Part shown: positions 6,404 through 45,292 of the stretch, piece after piece | Layout of the letters: every line of letters starts with the position of its first letter | Position numbering within the stretch: position 1 is the stretch's first letter | From: Bacilli bacterium | Lineage (GTDB): Bacteria > Bacillota_I > Bacilli_A > JAJDGJ01 | Reading direction: 5' to 3' | Length of the DNA stretch: 57,528 nt | Assembly (NCBI GenBank): GCA_031272545.1 | Contig: JAISTP010000054.1 | Location: 1 to 57,528, forward strand | Made by a program: the position numbers and the translations under genes | Notes under the pieces: generated by a model | What the model was told of the DNA's origin: nothing | Database searches by the model: none | Seen by the model: only the letters and a program-made list of their open reading frames with translations

Positions 6404-7720
6404 TTATTTTAATTTAAATAACTCTTCAATAGTTCTTTTAGCAGAATTACCATCTTCTAAAGGATTAAACATCTTATTAAATTTTAAATATTTTGCTTTA
6501 TAATCGATATTTAAAGATAAAGAATCTTTTAAATCATTAACTAATTCATCCATATTTTGTGATATATTAAAAGGTAGTTTTTTAATATCAAAATAAAATC
6601 CTCTTGTTAGATTTTGATATGTTTCTAAATCATACATATAAAGTAATATTGGTCTATTTAATATCGCATAATCAAACATTGTCGATGAATAATCAGTTAT
6701 CATAACATCACTCATTAAATATAAATCTCTAATATCAACATCTTTTGATAAATCATAAATAAAATCATCATCTTCATCAATAGTTAAATATTGTCTTATT
6801 AAATAATGAATGCGTAAAATTAAGATACAATTTTTAGAAAATAATTCTCTTAATTTAACTAAATCAAGTTTTAAATCAAAACAATATCCTTCACCTACTT
6901 TATAATCATTTTCACGCCACGTAGGAGCATATAAAATAACTTTTTTATCATGAGGAATATTATATTTATCTTTTAAAGATAAGATATAAGATGAATTATT
7001 ATTGTTAACTAAATAATCATTACGAGGATATCCTGTTAATTTCATAACATTTTCTTTTTTTACTTTCTTTAATGCAAAAGCACTACTAATATGTTTAGAA
7101 TAAAATTTAGATGGTGAACACATTAAACTATATCTTCTTGCATCTAATTCATATGATATTTTTGTTCTTAAAACGGAACGATTATTATTATCACCTTTGA
7201 CATCAATATCCCAACCTAATTTTTTTAAAGGTGTTCCATGCCATGTTTGTAAATAGAATTGATGTTCTTTTATTTTAAATGCTTGATCAAATACAGAACA
7301 ACTTATAATATATTTAGCTTGCGCCATATAACGATAATAAGGTCTTTTTTGATATTGAATTAATTTAATACGATCATTTAATTGGTATTCCTTAATTGTT
7401 TTTAAAAAATTAAAACTAGAAGAATTTAAAGTTGATGCATCTAACATATAATTTTCATATTCACAAAATTTTTCTATAAAAGTATGTTTTCTAAAAGAAA
7501 TTACAAAATTATAATTATTAAATTCTTTATTATTTTTTAAATAATCAAAAAGAGCTCGTGGATTATCACTAAAGTTTCTTCCTTGAAATGATTCAAGAAA
7601 AATTAAATTATCATCAATTTGATAACGATTACGATAATAGATAACATATCTAATTCTGGTAAAGATTAATTTAAATGTTCTATGAATTTTAAAAAAAATT
7701 TTTTTCATTATTTTGATCAT
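6404..7720 (-). CDS. CDP-glycerol glycerophosphotransferase family protein (teichoic-acid type)
   Basis: Peripheral membrane enzyme that transfers glycerol phosphate from CDP-glycerol onto a lipid-linked or glycolipid acceptor. Family motifs present are LQTWHGTPLKKLG (about residue 160), GYPRNDYL, LYAPTWREND (about 290) and MITDYSSTMFDYA (about 340). The N-terminus is basic and amphipathic. The longest possible frame begins at TTG 7780, but a sigma-A promoter (7752-7780) overlaps that codon, so translation should start downstream at ATG 7720 just after GGAG; ATG 7708 is an alternative. It is the first gene of an operon with DUF3800 and DUF218. TagB, TagF or TarF type cannot be told apart by eye. 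Confidence 0.85.
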   Translation of the reverse strand: MIKIMKKIFFKIHRTFKLIFTRIRYVIYYRNRYQIDDNLIFLESFQGRNFSDNPRALFDYLKNNKEFNNYNFVISFRKHTFIEKFCEYENYMLDASTLNSSSFNFLKTIKEYQLNDRIKLIQYQKRPYYRYMAQAKYIISCSVFDQAFKIKEHQFYLQTWHGTPLKKLGWDIDVKGDNNNRSVLRTKISYELDARRYSLMCSPSKFYSKHISSAFALKKVKKENVMKLTGYPRNDYLVNNNNSSYILSLKDKYNIPHDKKVILYAPTWRENDYKVGEGYCFDLKLDLVKLRELFSKNCILILRIHYLIRQYLTIDEDDDFIYDLSKDVDIRDLYLMSDVMITDYSSTMFDYAILNRPILLYMYDLETYQNLTRGFYFDIKKLPFNISQNMDELVNDLKDSLSLNIDYKAKYLKFNKMFNPLEDGNSAKRTIEELFKLK

Positions 7721-8071: not shown

Positions 8072-8100
8072 TTGACACTTAAATTTATTAGTGCTACAAT
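8072..8100 (+). promoter_or_regulatory. Promoter of the leader peptide and amino-acid ABC transporter operon
   Basis: Perfect -35 TTGACA (8072-8077), 17-nt spacer and -10 TACAAT (8095-8100). Transcription would start near 8107, giving an approximately 220-nt leader that contains a short reading frame and a terminator before the first transporter gene. Confidence 0.85.
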
Positions 8101-8137
8101 CTACACATTCAAATACACATAAAAGGAGGATACTATT

Positions 8138-8221
8138 ATGTTCTACAATAATAACTTAAATAACTTTGAACATCATCATATCATGATTAATAATAGTATT
8201 CGCCATACTATGCTTTTTTGA
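8138..8221 (+). CDS. Histidine-rich leader peptide (putative attenuator peptide)
   Basis: A 27-codon reading frame with ATG at 8138 and TGA at 8219-8221. It is preceded by a near-perfect AGGAGG at the ideal 8-nt distance and a strong promoter. The peptide contains three consecutive His codons (12-14, positions 8171-8179) plus His at codon 23, so 4 of 27 residues are His. A strong terminator (8256-8290) follows, then the genes of an amino-acid ABC transporter. This is the layout of a ribosome-mediated transcription attenuator sensing charged tRNA-His. An Asn run (codons 4-6) is also present but lies earlier and Asn is common in this genome. The histidine specificity is inferred from the codons. 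Confidence 0.75.
   Translation: MFYNNNLNNFEHHHIMINNSIRHTMLF
8193..8211 (+). promoter_or_regulatory. Candidate pause hairpin inside the leader peptide frame
   Basis: ATAGTAT (8193-8199) pairs with ATACTAT (8205-8211) around a TCGCC loop, starting 14 nt after the last of the three His codons. In a classical attenuator this would be the 1:2 pause structure that is melted by the translating ribosome. Seen as base pairing only; the pausing role is inferred. Confidence 0.4.
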
Positions 8222-8225
8222 TATG

Positions 8226-8262
8226 TTAGTTTAAAAGAATTGCATAATAATATCTAAACTAG
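8226..8262 (+). promoter_or_regulatory. Candidate antiterminator pairing of the His leader
   Basis: TTAGTTTA (8226-8233) can pair with TAAACTAG (8255-8262, one U-G pair), which is the 5' arm of the terminator. A ribosome that reaches the TGA at 8219-8221 would cover 8226-8233 and let the terminator form. One stalled at the His codons would leave it free. The pairing is short and AT-rich, so its strength needs a folding calculation. Confidence 0.4.
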
Positions 8263-8290
8263 GTGAATACTTAACTCACCTAGTTTTTTT
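8256..8290 (+). terminator. Attenuator terminator ahead of the ABC transporter
   Basis: A perfect 11-bp stem (8256-8266 with 8276-8286), a 9-nt loop and a run of seven T (8284-8290). It lies between the leader peptide stop and the first structural gene, so it must be read through for transporter expression. Confidence 0.88.
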
Positions 8291-8329
8291 GTGTATTTGA
8301 GAATAAATTAAATTGAGAGGATAATAAAA

Positions 8330-9109
8330 ATGAAAAAAATAATTACATTAACAATGGCACTTTTCTTAATAATATCGCTAAGTGCTTGTGGATCAAAAAA
8401 TGAAACATCTGATACAATGAAAAAAGATACATTAATTGTTGGATTAGATGATACTTTTGCGCCAATGGGATTTAAAGATAAAGATGGAAAAATCATTGGT
8501 TTTGATGTTGACTTAGCTAATGAAGTAGGAAAAATTATTGGTAAAAAAATGCAATTTCAACCTATTGATTGGTCAATGAAAGAAACAGAATTAAATAATA
8601 AAAATATTGATTTAATTTGGAATGGTTATTCAATTACTGAAGAAAGAAAAAAACAAGTATTATTTAGTGAACCATATATAGATAATGAACAAATCATTGT
8701 TGTATTAAAAGATAGTCCTATTACTAAGAAAAGTGATTTAGCTGGTAAAACAGTTACCACACAAAAAGACTCAAGTACTGAAGATGCTTTTAAAAATGAT
8801 ACAACTGGTATTGTAAGTAAATTTAAAGGTGGAGCTCCAGTACTATATCCAACATTTGATGATTGCTTTATGGACTTAGATAGTAAAAGAGCTGATGCGC
8901 TTGTCGGTGATTCAGTTTTAATTAAATATATGATTAAACAAAAAGATACTGATAAATATCGTATTTTAACAGATACTTTTGGAAGTGAAGAAATGGGTGT
9001 AGGAATGAGAAAAAGTGATACTGATTTAAAAAAGGCCATTGATGATGCCCTTAATGAATTAAAAGCTAATGGTACTTATCAAAAAATATATGATAAATGG
9101 TTTGATTAG
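8330..9109 (+). CDS. Amino-acid ABC transporter substrate-binding lipoprotein
   Basis: A 259-residue type 3 solute-binding protein, anchored outside the membrane by a lipid. The signal peptide has a lipobox LSAC with Cys at about residue 20. Mature features of polar amino-acid binders are present: GLDDTFAPMGF, GFDVDLANEVG, the Arg of SITEERKK that binds the substrate carboxylate, TQKDSSTEDAF, and the Asp of LVGDS. It is the first structural gene after the histidine-type attenuator and is followed by permease and ATPase genes, so histidine (or another cationic/polar amino acid) is the likely substrate. The ligand cannot be assigned from the protein sequence alone. Confidence 0.9.
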   Translation: MKKIITLTMALFLIISLSACGSKNETSDTMKKDTLIVGLDDTFAPMGFKDKDGKIIGFDVDLANEVGKIIGKKMQFQPIDWSMKETELNNKNIDLIWNGYSITEERKKQVLFSEPYIDNEQIIVVLKDSPITKKSDLAGKTVTTQKDSSTEDAFKNDTTGIVSKFKGGAPVLYPTFDDCFMDLDSKRADALVGDSVLIKYMIKQKDTDKYRILTDTFGSEEMGVGMRKSDTDLKKAIDDALNELKANGTYQKIYDKWFD

Positions 9110-9119
9110 GTAAAAGATT

Positions 9120-9749
9120 ATGAATTTATTTATTGATATATTACCTAGTTTATTAAATGGTTTAAAGACAACTTTATTATTATTTATTGTTGTCTTAATC
9201 ATTTCAATACCTTTAGGATTTATTGTTGCATTAATTAGAATACATGCTCATAAAATAATTACAACGATTATCCAATTCTATATCTTTATCATGAGAGGAA
9301 CTCCTTTATTATTACAAATTATGTTTATCTTTTTTGGACTTCCTTATTTAGGTATTACTTTAAATCGTATTCCAGCGGCCTTAATTGCTTTTATCTTAAA
9401 CTATACAGCTTATTATGCGGAAATATTTAGAGGTGGTATTCTAGCAATACCTAAAAATCAATCAGAAGCAATTAAAGTTCTAGGAATTGGTCAAATAAGA
9501 GGTTTTCTAAAAATTATTATGCCCCAAGTATTTAAAATAGTATTACCTTCGGTAGGTAATGAAGTAATCAATCTTGTTAAAGATACATCTTTAATTTATA
9601 TTATTGGAATAACTGAAATTTTAAGAGCTGGACAAACAGCAGTAAATACTTATGCTACACCAATACCATTTATCTTTGTTGGAATATTTTATTTAATAAT
9701 AACTGCTTTTATTACATTAATATTAAATAAAATAGAAAAGAAAATATAG
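9120..9749 (+). CDS. Amino-acid ABC transporter permease (HisM/ArtQ type)
   Basis: A 209-residue inner membrane permease of the polar amino-acid transporter family with about five hydrophobic helices. The N-terminal LLNGLKTTLLLFI and the MRGTPLLLQIMF segment (about residue 58) are typical. The cytoplasmic EAA loop that contacts the ATPase is EAIKVLGIGQIRGFLKIIMP (about residues 117-136). It starts 10 bases after the binding-protein gene and is followed 9 bases later by the ATPase. A single permease gene implies a homodimer. Confidence 0.93.
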   Translation: MNLFIDILPSLLNGLKTTLLLFIVVLIISIPLGFIVALIRIHAHKIITTIIQFYIFIMRGTPLLLQIMFIFFGLPYLGITLNRIPAALIAFILNYTAYYAEIFRGGILAIPKNQSEAIKVLGIGQIRGFLKIIMPQVFKIVLPSVGNEVINLVKDTSLIYIIGITEILRAGQTAVNTYATPIPFIFVGIFYLIITAFITLILNKIEKKI

Positions 9750-9758
9750 GAGGCTATT

Positions 9759-10439
9759 ATGTTAGAAGTTAAAAATATAAGTAAAAGTTTTAATGATAAT
9801 GTTGTTATTAAAAACTTTTCATTAACAATTAAAGATCATGAGATAGTTGCACTAGTTGGAAAATCAGGAACAGGTAAAACTACCTTCATGCGCTTAATAA
9901 ATAATTTAGAGAAAGCTAATAAAGGAAGTATCGCTATCAATGATATTGTTTTGTGTAACACTATTAATGATAAAATAGTATATGCAAAACACAAAGATAC
10001 TAAAAAATATCATTTACAATTAGGAATGGTATTTCAAGATTATGCTTTATTTCCTAATTATGATGTCTTAAATAATTTATTAATAGCTCCTTTAGCTCAA
10101 AAAATAGATACTAAAGAAAATTTAACTAAAAAAGCTAAAAAAATTCTAAAAGATGTTGAACTTAGTAATAAAATTAATGCTCGTATTGATACTTTATCTG
10201 GTGGCCAACAACAAAGAGTAGCCATCGCTAGAGCCTTAATGTTAAATCCAGCTATTATTTGTTTTGATGAACCAACATCAGCTTTAGATGAAGAAACAAC
10301 TAATAACATATCTGAATTAATTAAAAAAATAGCTCAAGATGGCACAGGTGTATTAATAATTACTCATGATAAACAATTTGCTAAAAACACCGCAACAAGA
10401 ATAATAAATTCAAATAAATTCATATCAAAAGAAAATTAA
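9759..10439 (+). CDS. Amino-acid ABC transporter ATP-binding protein
   Basis: ATPase subunit that powers the importer, 226 residues. Walker A is GKSGTGKTT (about residue 34), the Q loop is MVFQDYALFPN (about 90), the signature is LSGGQQQR (about 147), Walker B is IICFDEP (about 167) and the switch His lies in IITHD (about 203). This is the GlnQ/HisP group. AGGAGG precedes the ATG. It is the last gene of the operon and ends at a bidirectional terminator. Confidence 0.95.
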   Translation: MLEVKNISKSFNDNVVIKNFSLTIKDHEIVALVGKSGTGKTTFMRLINNLEKANKGSIAINDIVLCNTINDKIVYAKHKDTKKYHLQLGMVFQDYALFPNYDVLNNLLIAPLAQKIDTKENLTKKAKKILKDVELSNKINARIDTLSGGQQQRVAIARALMLNPAIICFDEPTSALDEETTNNISELIKKIAQDGTGVLIITHDKQFAKNTATRIINSNKFISKEN

Positions 10440-37581: not shown

Positions 37582-37611
37582 AAAAAAGCCCACATTATAA
37601 ATAAGGGCTTT
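37582..37611 (-). terminator. Expression-platform terminator of the guanine riboswitch
   Basis: Minus-strand stem AAAGCCC/GGGCTTT (37605-37611 with 37585-37591) and a T run. Its 5' arm CCCTTAT (37601-37607) is complementary to ATAAGGG in the 3' strand of aptamer stem P1 (37625-37631), so the two structures compete. Confidence 0.85.
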
Positions 37612-37622
37612 AAAAATAAAAA

Positions 37623-37695
37623 TACCCTTATAGTCTCACATTTACGGTGTAAGGTAGAAACTTGTTAGCCATATCCTAACCTTTATATAATGGTA
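37623..37695 (-). promoter_or_regulatory. Guanine-sensing purine riboswitch
   Basis: Minus-strand purine aptamer. P1 pairs 37686-37695 with 37623-37632 (one mismatch). P2 is GTTAG/CTAAC with the GATATGG loop, J2/3 is AAGTTTCTACC, and P3 has the CCGTAAA loop between TTACA and TGTGA-like arms. The specificity base before P1 is C (GACTAT), the guanine form; adenine switches have T. With guanine bound, P1 forms and frees the terminator, so the permease gene is switched off. Confidence 0.95.
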
Positions 37696-37700
37696 TAAGT

Positions 37701-37709
37701 ATTATAACA
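37701..37709 (-). promoter_or_regulatory. Extended -10 promoter of the riboswitch-permease unit
   Basis: Minus strand TGT-TATAAT (37701-37709), directly upstream of the aptamer. No good -35 box is seen at the right distance, which fits an extended -10 promoter. Confidence 0.6.
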
Positions 37710-37769
37710 CATTTTTAGACAAAAAATAGACAAATTTTTAATAATATAGCACTTATTAATTAAATAAAT

Positions 37770-45073: not shown

Positions 45074-45097
45074 ATAAAAAAAGTTCCTTAAAGGAAC
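45074..45097 (-). terminator. T-box terminator ahead of ileS
   Basis: Minus-strand stem GTTCCT/AGGAAC (45083-45088 with 45092-45097) and seven T. Its 5' arm overlaps the alternative antiterminator formed with the T-box sequence. Confidence 0.85.
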
Positions 45098-45285
45098 GAA
45101 ATCATCGCGGTACCATCCTATTTCACATAAATGTGCCCTCAATGGCGATAATGGTGCCACCATGTTTACTTACTTAATTCAATAAACAAGCTCCCAAATG
45201 ATCTATTTACTAGCTTTTTAAAGTTTTACACCAACCAACTTTTCTCTTAAAAAAATACTAATAAAACATTTTGTTCAACGCTTAT
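45074..45285 (-). promoter_or_regulatory. T-box riboswitch, isoleucine specific
   Basis: Leader with the conserved T-box TGGTACCGCG (45106-45115), preceded by a Stem I that has an AGAGA/GA-motif region and a specifier loop. The likely specifier is ATC (45200-45202), which matches ileS downstream. Uncharged tRNA-Ile would pair with the specifier and the T-box bulge and stabilise the antiterminator. The 5' limit is approximate. Confidence 0.93.
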
Positions 45286-45292
45286 GATAAAT

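Follow-up and report, generated by a model that had tools for sequence, protein, structure and literature searches.

The importer operon at 8330-10439 of the window, by which we mean the whole stretch of 57,528 nt that was analyzed and that comes from a bacterium with a small genome, is preceded by a short reading frame carrying three consecutive His codons and by an intrinsic terminator, and this arrangement raises the question of whether a ribosome reading the frame decides if transcription enters the importer genes. Collectively, the anatomy of the locus, the folding of its leader, the T-boxes of His specificity that orthologous importers carry, and comparable Arg-codon leaders before a paralogous importer make it very likely that the region 8072-8290 controls a histidine ABC importer by ribosome-mediated transcription attenuation, as an earlier note on this DNA had proposed. 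The promoter, ribosome site, His-bearing frame, and terminator described in that note are all present. Specifically, a sigma-70-type promoter on the plus strand, with TTGACA at 8072-8077, a 17-nt spacer, and TACAAT at 8095-8100 preceded by TG (11 of 12 consensus matches), is followed by the Shine-Dalgarno sequence AAGGAGG (8123-8129), located 8 nt before the ATG at 8138. The leader peptide frame of 27 codons (8138-8221; MFYNNNLNNFEHHHIMINNSIRHTMLF, stop codon 8219-8221) carries CAT CAT CAT at codons 12-14 (8171-8179), the proposed stall site, and a fourth His at codon 23 (8204-8206). Behind the terminator lie the genes for a HisX-type lipoprotein, the substrate-binding protein (8330-9109), for a permease of the HEQRo_perm_3TM family (9120-9749), and for the ATPase of a polar amino acid importer (9759-10439), all on the plus strand. 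The upstream neighbors, a tRNA-Arg gene and a glycerol-phosphate transferase-like gene, are both on the opposite strand, so the terminator at 8256-8290 ends no preceding operon and belongs to the 5′ leader of the importer. A promoter-like match at 8297-8325 was dismissed because transcription from it would start no earlier than the ATG at 8330.

All possible helices of the leader region were listed exhaustively, and the three judged relevant form the classical 1:2, 2:3, 3:4 layout. Segment 1 (8128-8139), which spans the Shine-Dalgarno and start region, pairs as the protector with 8190-8201 (−10.6 kcal/mol), a helix that would mask the leader’s own ribosome site. Segment 2 (8190-8204) has a second partner in segment 3 (8256-8271), which comprises the terminator 5′ arm with its loop, while segment 4 (8276-8290) comprises the terminator 3′ arm (8276-8286) and seven T residues (8284-8290). 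The terminator helix, 8256-8266:8276-8286, has 11 bp and −14.4 kcal/mol; the antiterminator, 8195-8204:8262-8271, has 10 bp and −12.6 kcal/mol and joins AGUAUUCGCC, just 3′ of the His codons, to GGUGAAUACU, the GC-rich top of the terminator 5′ arm together with the loop. This pairing, which begins immediately 3′ of the His run, is the functional antiterminator and had been overlooked in the earlier note, where 8226-8233:8255-8262 was named instead. The latter helix exists, but at −4.6 kcal/mol it is not the best available, and it was rejected in this role with a probability of 0.39 without a ribosome and 0.02 with a stalled one. A 7-bp hairpin at 8193-8211, inside the frame, is likewise real but weak (−4.0 kcal/mol).

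Folding calculations with the terminator 3′ arm still unmade show that the 2:3 helix forms with a probability of 0.98 when the ribosome stands on any of His12-14 and of 0.00 when it stands at the stop codon or is absent; without a ribosome the 1:2 helix has a probability of 0.93. The interaction energy between the upstream segment and the terminator arm changes correspondingly from −7.1 kcal/mol in the stalled state to −0.6 kcal/mol at the stop, and by this measure 8 of 600 shuffled sequences switch as strongly. In the comparison of a ribosome at the His codons with one at the stop codon, which the earlier note had suggested, this antiterminator appears only in the stalled state; it is a different helix from the one named there. 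In the full-length equilibrium fold the terminator wins in every ribosome state, so the switch depends on the order of synthesis, as known attenuators likewise do. When pairing is allowed across the stalled ribosome, the 1:2 helix can still form. Moreover, under a stricter measure, occupancy of the whole terminator arm, 198 of 1,000 shuffles equal the window, which is not significant, because the 2:3 helix occupies only the GC-rich half of the arm and the loop. In these computations the antiterminator and the terminator are mutually exclusive and the former is favored by the stall, less clearly so when whole-arm occupancy is the yardstick.

From these elements we infer a cycle of leader translation, stalling, and termination in vivo. 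When charged tRNA-His is scarce, the ribosome would stall at His codons 12-14, disrupting the 1:2 helix and freeing segment 2 just ahead of it; segment 2 could then pair with 8262-8271 before the terminator 3′ arm is synthesized, and this pairing would block the GC-rich top of the terminator and let transcription enter the importer genes. With plentiful histidine, the ribosome would proceed to the stop codon, where it would mask the GC end of segment 2 and so allow the terminator to form. Were the leader not translated at all, the 1:2 pairing would retain segment 2, and the terminator would again be expected to form.

The combination of features is rare by chance. A His triple is expected in 26 random codons of the same base composition with p of about 0.0005; 3 of 2,000 shuffles contain a 2:3 helix of equal or greater strength, and 13 of 2,000 a 1:2 helix as strong; and the 5′UTR folds far better than its own shuffles (z = −4.4). 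On the plus strand of the window, the leader is the only short frame that is led by a Shine-Dalgarno sequence, contains a triple residue, and has a terminator directly behind it; the other strand has one comparable frame, with a weak 6-bp terminator. A scan of four family genomes for a Shine-Dalgarno sequence, an ATG, and three His codons returned 15 places, among which the leader is the only free-standing short in-frame case; the only other in-frame hit is embedded in a long gene that is read in a different frame.

The control of orthologous importers bears on the substrate. Relatives of the binding protein, 41-58% identical to it, occur in many Firmicutes, and 26 of about 100 are directly preceded by a T-box whose specifier is CAC (His). 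The specifier loop of these T-boxes reads GAA-CAC-A, in line with the published reading rule GAA...XXXA (PMC5794164); four from Trichococcus carry two extra bases, which makes their specifier reading less certain. In the tree, the window’s binding protein falls in a clade of 20 (support 99/83), 13 of which have a T-box(His), and is separate from the Arg and Lys paralogues encoded in the same genome. The Listeria orthologues are 45% identical to the binding protein, and the Listeria histidine transporter has been listed as T-box(His)-regulated (Ashniev 2022, PMC9413887). Since orthologous importers are preceded by CAC-specifier T-boxes, the substrate of the importer at 8330-10439 is very probably histidine, and the codon identity of the leader agrees with the T-box specifier of the orthologues. 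Other orthologues have further arrangements: in several Tenericutes-like genomes (L095, L103, L106, L110) a gene for a TrpR-like YerC/HisR protein lies directly upstream of the importer, and in Clostridium orthologues (L052, L053, L056, L057) a palindrome seen by eye at the promoter, AACACTTTA-TAAAGTGTT, matches HisR-type control. Across the Firmicutes, one importer is thus found with three devices that respond to a single signal (HisR, a T-box reading uncharged tRNA-His, and a ribosome reading His codons), which makes it a clean case of regulatory replacement. The earlier note had proposed aligning the leaders of orthologous transporters; the orthologues have T-box or HisR control in place of the leader, the importer is absent from the three other family genomes (G001-G003), and the sampled relatives yielded no orthologous His leader.

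Conservation of a frame together with its codon run is seen, however, in the Arg-codon leaders that precede a paralogous importer. One is in the same genome (L002; G000:C51, about 7292-7462, minus strand; MFLTNLKLNNLMVVRRARNFIS), and its orthologues are in another species of that genus (L008; G001:C74; MLDYKLQLNSALVLRDRRNYLSRNRDYAF) and in a neighboring genus (L012; G002:C7; MNNLNKLNSNIICVVRRRRNS). All three have a terminator, a 2:3 antiterminator, and, directly at the Arg codons, a 1:2 hairpin. Each base pair is conserved in 3 of 3, with one two-sided change in the 1:2 helix and one in the terminator, and the 2:3 helix is kept up through G-U changes, with three sequences being too few for covariation statistics. 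When the ribosome is stalled, the 2:3 helix has a probability of 0.99-1.00, and at the stop it is absent; this switch is matched by 1-4 of 600 shuffles. A search of 395 genomes of the class with a model of the Arg leader returned only the three family members as strong matches, and the weaker ones (E of 0.001 and above) look like chance. The substrate of this importer is presumably arginine. These leaders suggest that the lineage uses leader-peptide control more than once. A literature search, open-access in scope and therefore weak evidence, brought up no importer under an Arg-leader transcription attenuator; S. aureus rbfL (PMC13009471) was considered as a precedent and set aside, being translational and having a different target.

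Could the frame be no sensor at all? The terminator might be constitutive or controlled otherwise, by a protein or a ligand, and the His triple a product of chance or part of a small His-rich protein. Three His codons are few, near the minimum for known leaders, which counts against attenuation; orthologues do not conserve the leader; and the switch is not significant by whole-arm occupancy. Set against this are the rarity of both the His triple and the 2:3 helix in random sequence, the match between the leader codon and the His specifier of the orthologues’ T-boxes, the absence of any riboswitch family match at the locus, and the Arg leaders, which apply the same logic with another codon to the paralogous importer, and we regard this explanation as unlikely. 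Still less probable, in our judgment, is that the operon responds to the translation of its leader as such, through the 1:2 helix sequestering the Shine-Dalgarno sequence or through polarity and Rho, and so senses general translation rather than histidine: the 1:2 helix does hide the leader’s ribosome site, but an intrinsic terminator is present and the His run is placed exactly where a stall frees segment 2.

That orthologues elsewhere use HisR operators or T-boxes invites another reading, in which the operon answers to a repressor of the HisR type or to a degenerate T-box, and the leader frame has no regulatory role. The T-box model RF00230 has no match at the locus, although it finds 12 T-boxes elsewhere in the genome, and no YerC/HisR family protein was found in the four family genomes by a search that detected the B. 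subtilis positive control. HisR control was discarded on the ground that the family genomes are without HisR, and we give this whole reading very little credence. The gene hisD was not found in the family either, a soft negative given that the search also missed hisD in the B. subtilis control; together with the absence of HisR, this indicates that the organism is probably a histidine auxotroph.

The probable histidine attenuator of the window has an independent counterpart elsewhere. In an uncultured Clostridium (L065:2765-2961), a leader with five His codons, MKNSKITIKLNIQLHHHHHSTKGL, stands before the orthologous binding protein, permease, and ATPase genes. Its antiterminator has a probability of 0.98 with the ribosome stalled on His codons 1-4 and of 0.29 on the fifth, and a ribosome at the stop codon gives the terminator. 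The nearest tree relatives of the L065 binding protein (100/96) have T-box(His) control. Both importers with His leaders are nested among T-box(His) relatives, which suggests two independent swaps; by parsimony, and not as proof, a His leader seems to have replaced the T-box on this importer at least twice. The hairpins of the L065 leader also match RF04312, the “trpB ncRNA motif,” with 50.1 bits (E 3.5e-6 in a 451-base search), short of the gathering score of 59, and some 15 nt separate the end of the His5 frame from P1 of that motif. The published description of RF04312 presents it as a strong riboswitch candidate; the motif has >900 members across Firmicutes and Fusobacteria, most of them preceding an uncharacterized amino-acid ABC transporter, and its authors left room for a classic attenuator (PMC11109978). 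The match suggests that the motif is a leader-peptide attenuator, and the Clostridium leader gives this unexplained RNA motif a mechanism that can be tested directly: should RF04312 members prove in general to have a codon run that suits the gene behind it, the motif would be an attenuator. A broader proposal is tentative, and we rate it just short of even: that leader-peptide attenuators have repeatedly, and in modular fashion, taken the place of T-boxes and repressors on the amino-acid importers of low-GC Gram-positive bacteria, with His and Arg versions in one lineage and a further His version in a Clostridium, and that RF04312 is at least in part such an attenuator and not a riboswitch.

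Histidine attenuators as such have precedents in the Firmicutes, a group that the earlier note had linked with T-box control of histidine genes. They have been predicted on the his operon of the B. cereus group, Peptostreptococcaceae/Lutispora, and Erysipelotrichales (Ashniev 2022, PMC9413887) and on hisS*/hisZ of bacilli (Naville & Gautheret 2010, PMC2965389). Like the leader described here, these combine a short frame of 3-5 His codons, a terminator, and an alternative antiterminator, and substitute for T-box or HisR control; unlike it, they target the his operon or hisS paralogues, whereas here the target is a hisXYZ-type importer in another lineage. Table 3 of the former study places attenuators on his operons only and hisXYZ under HisR or T-box only. 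The his leader of E. coli and Salmonella (RF00514) shares the His codons, stall, antiterminator, and terminator, but the present locus is shorter, has three His codons and four segments instead of six, serves import and not synthesis, and gives no match to the RF00514 covariance model. The His T-box of hisXYZ (RF00230) has the same gene target and responds to the same signal, tRNA-His charging, but senses uncharged tRNA directly. The leucine-rich attenuator peptide of the S. aureus ilv-leu operon (PMC5794164) is another case of leader-peptide attenuation in a Firmicute, genetically supported there, that governs branched-chain amino acid synthesis in contrast to histidine import. Thus, the principle is known, and what appears to be new is the target, a hisXYZ-type importer, and the lineage; the use of a His leader on a histidine importer appears to be undescribed, relatives controlling this importer by other devices.

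Other RNA elements occur in the genome and its family. In L003 (G000:C23), a lysine riboswitch with an Rfam match precedes the gene for a third polar amino-acid binding protein of the family, and the same leader was recognized by eye in L116 (G002:C16); the family thus has three paralogous importers under two kinds of RNA control. T-boxes coexist with leader peptides in this genome, and the window itself contains a T-box with an AUC specifier before ileS (45089-45287, minus strand) and a purine riboswitch (37611-37710, minus strand). Upstream of hisS in the family genomes (L207-L210), where neither a T-box nor a leader frame was seen, a short conserved hairpin, AGTCAAG...CTTGACTA, and a T-rich stretch lie between the promoter and the hisS start in four of four genomes, and this hairpin is possibly another attenuator.
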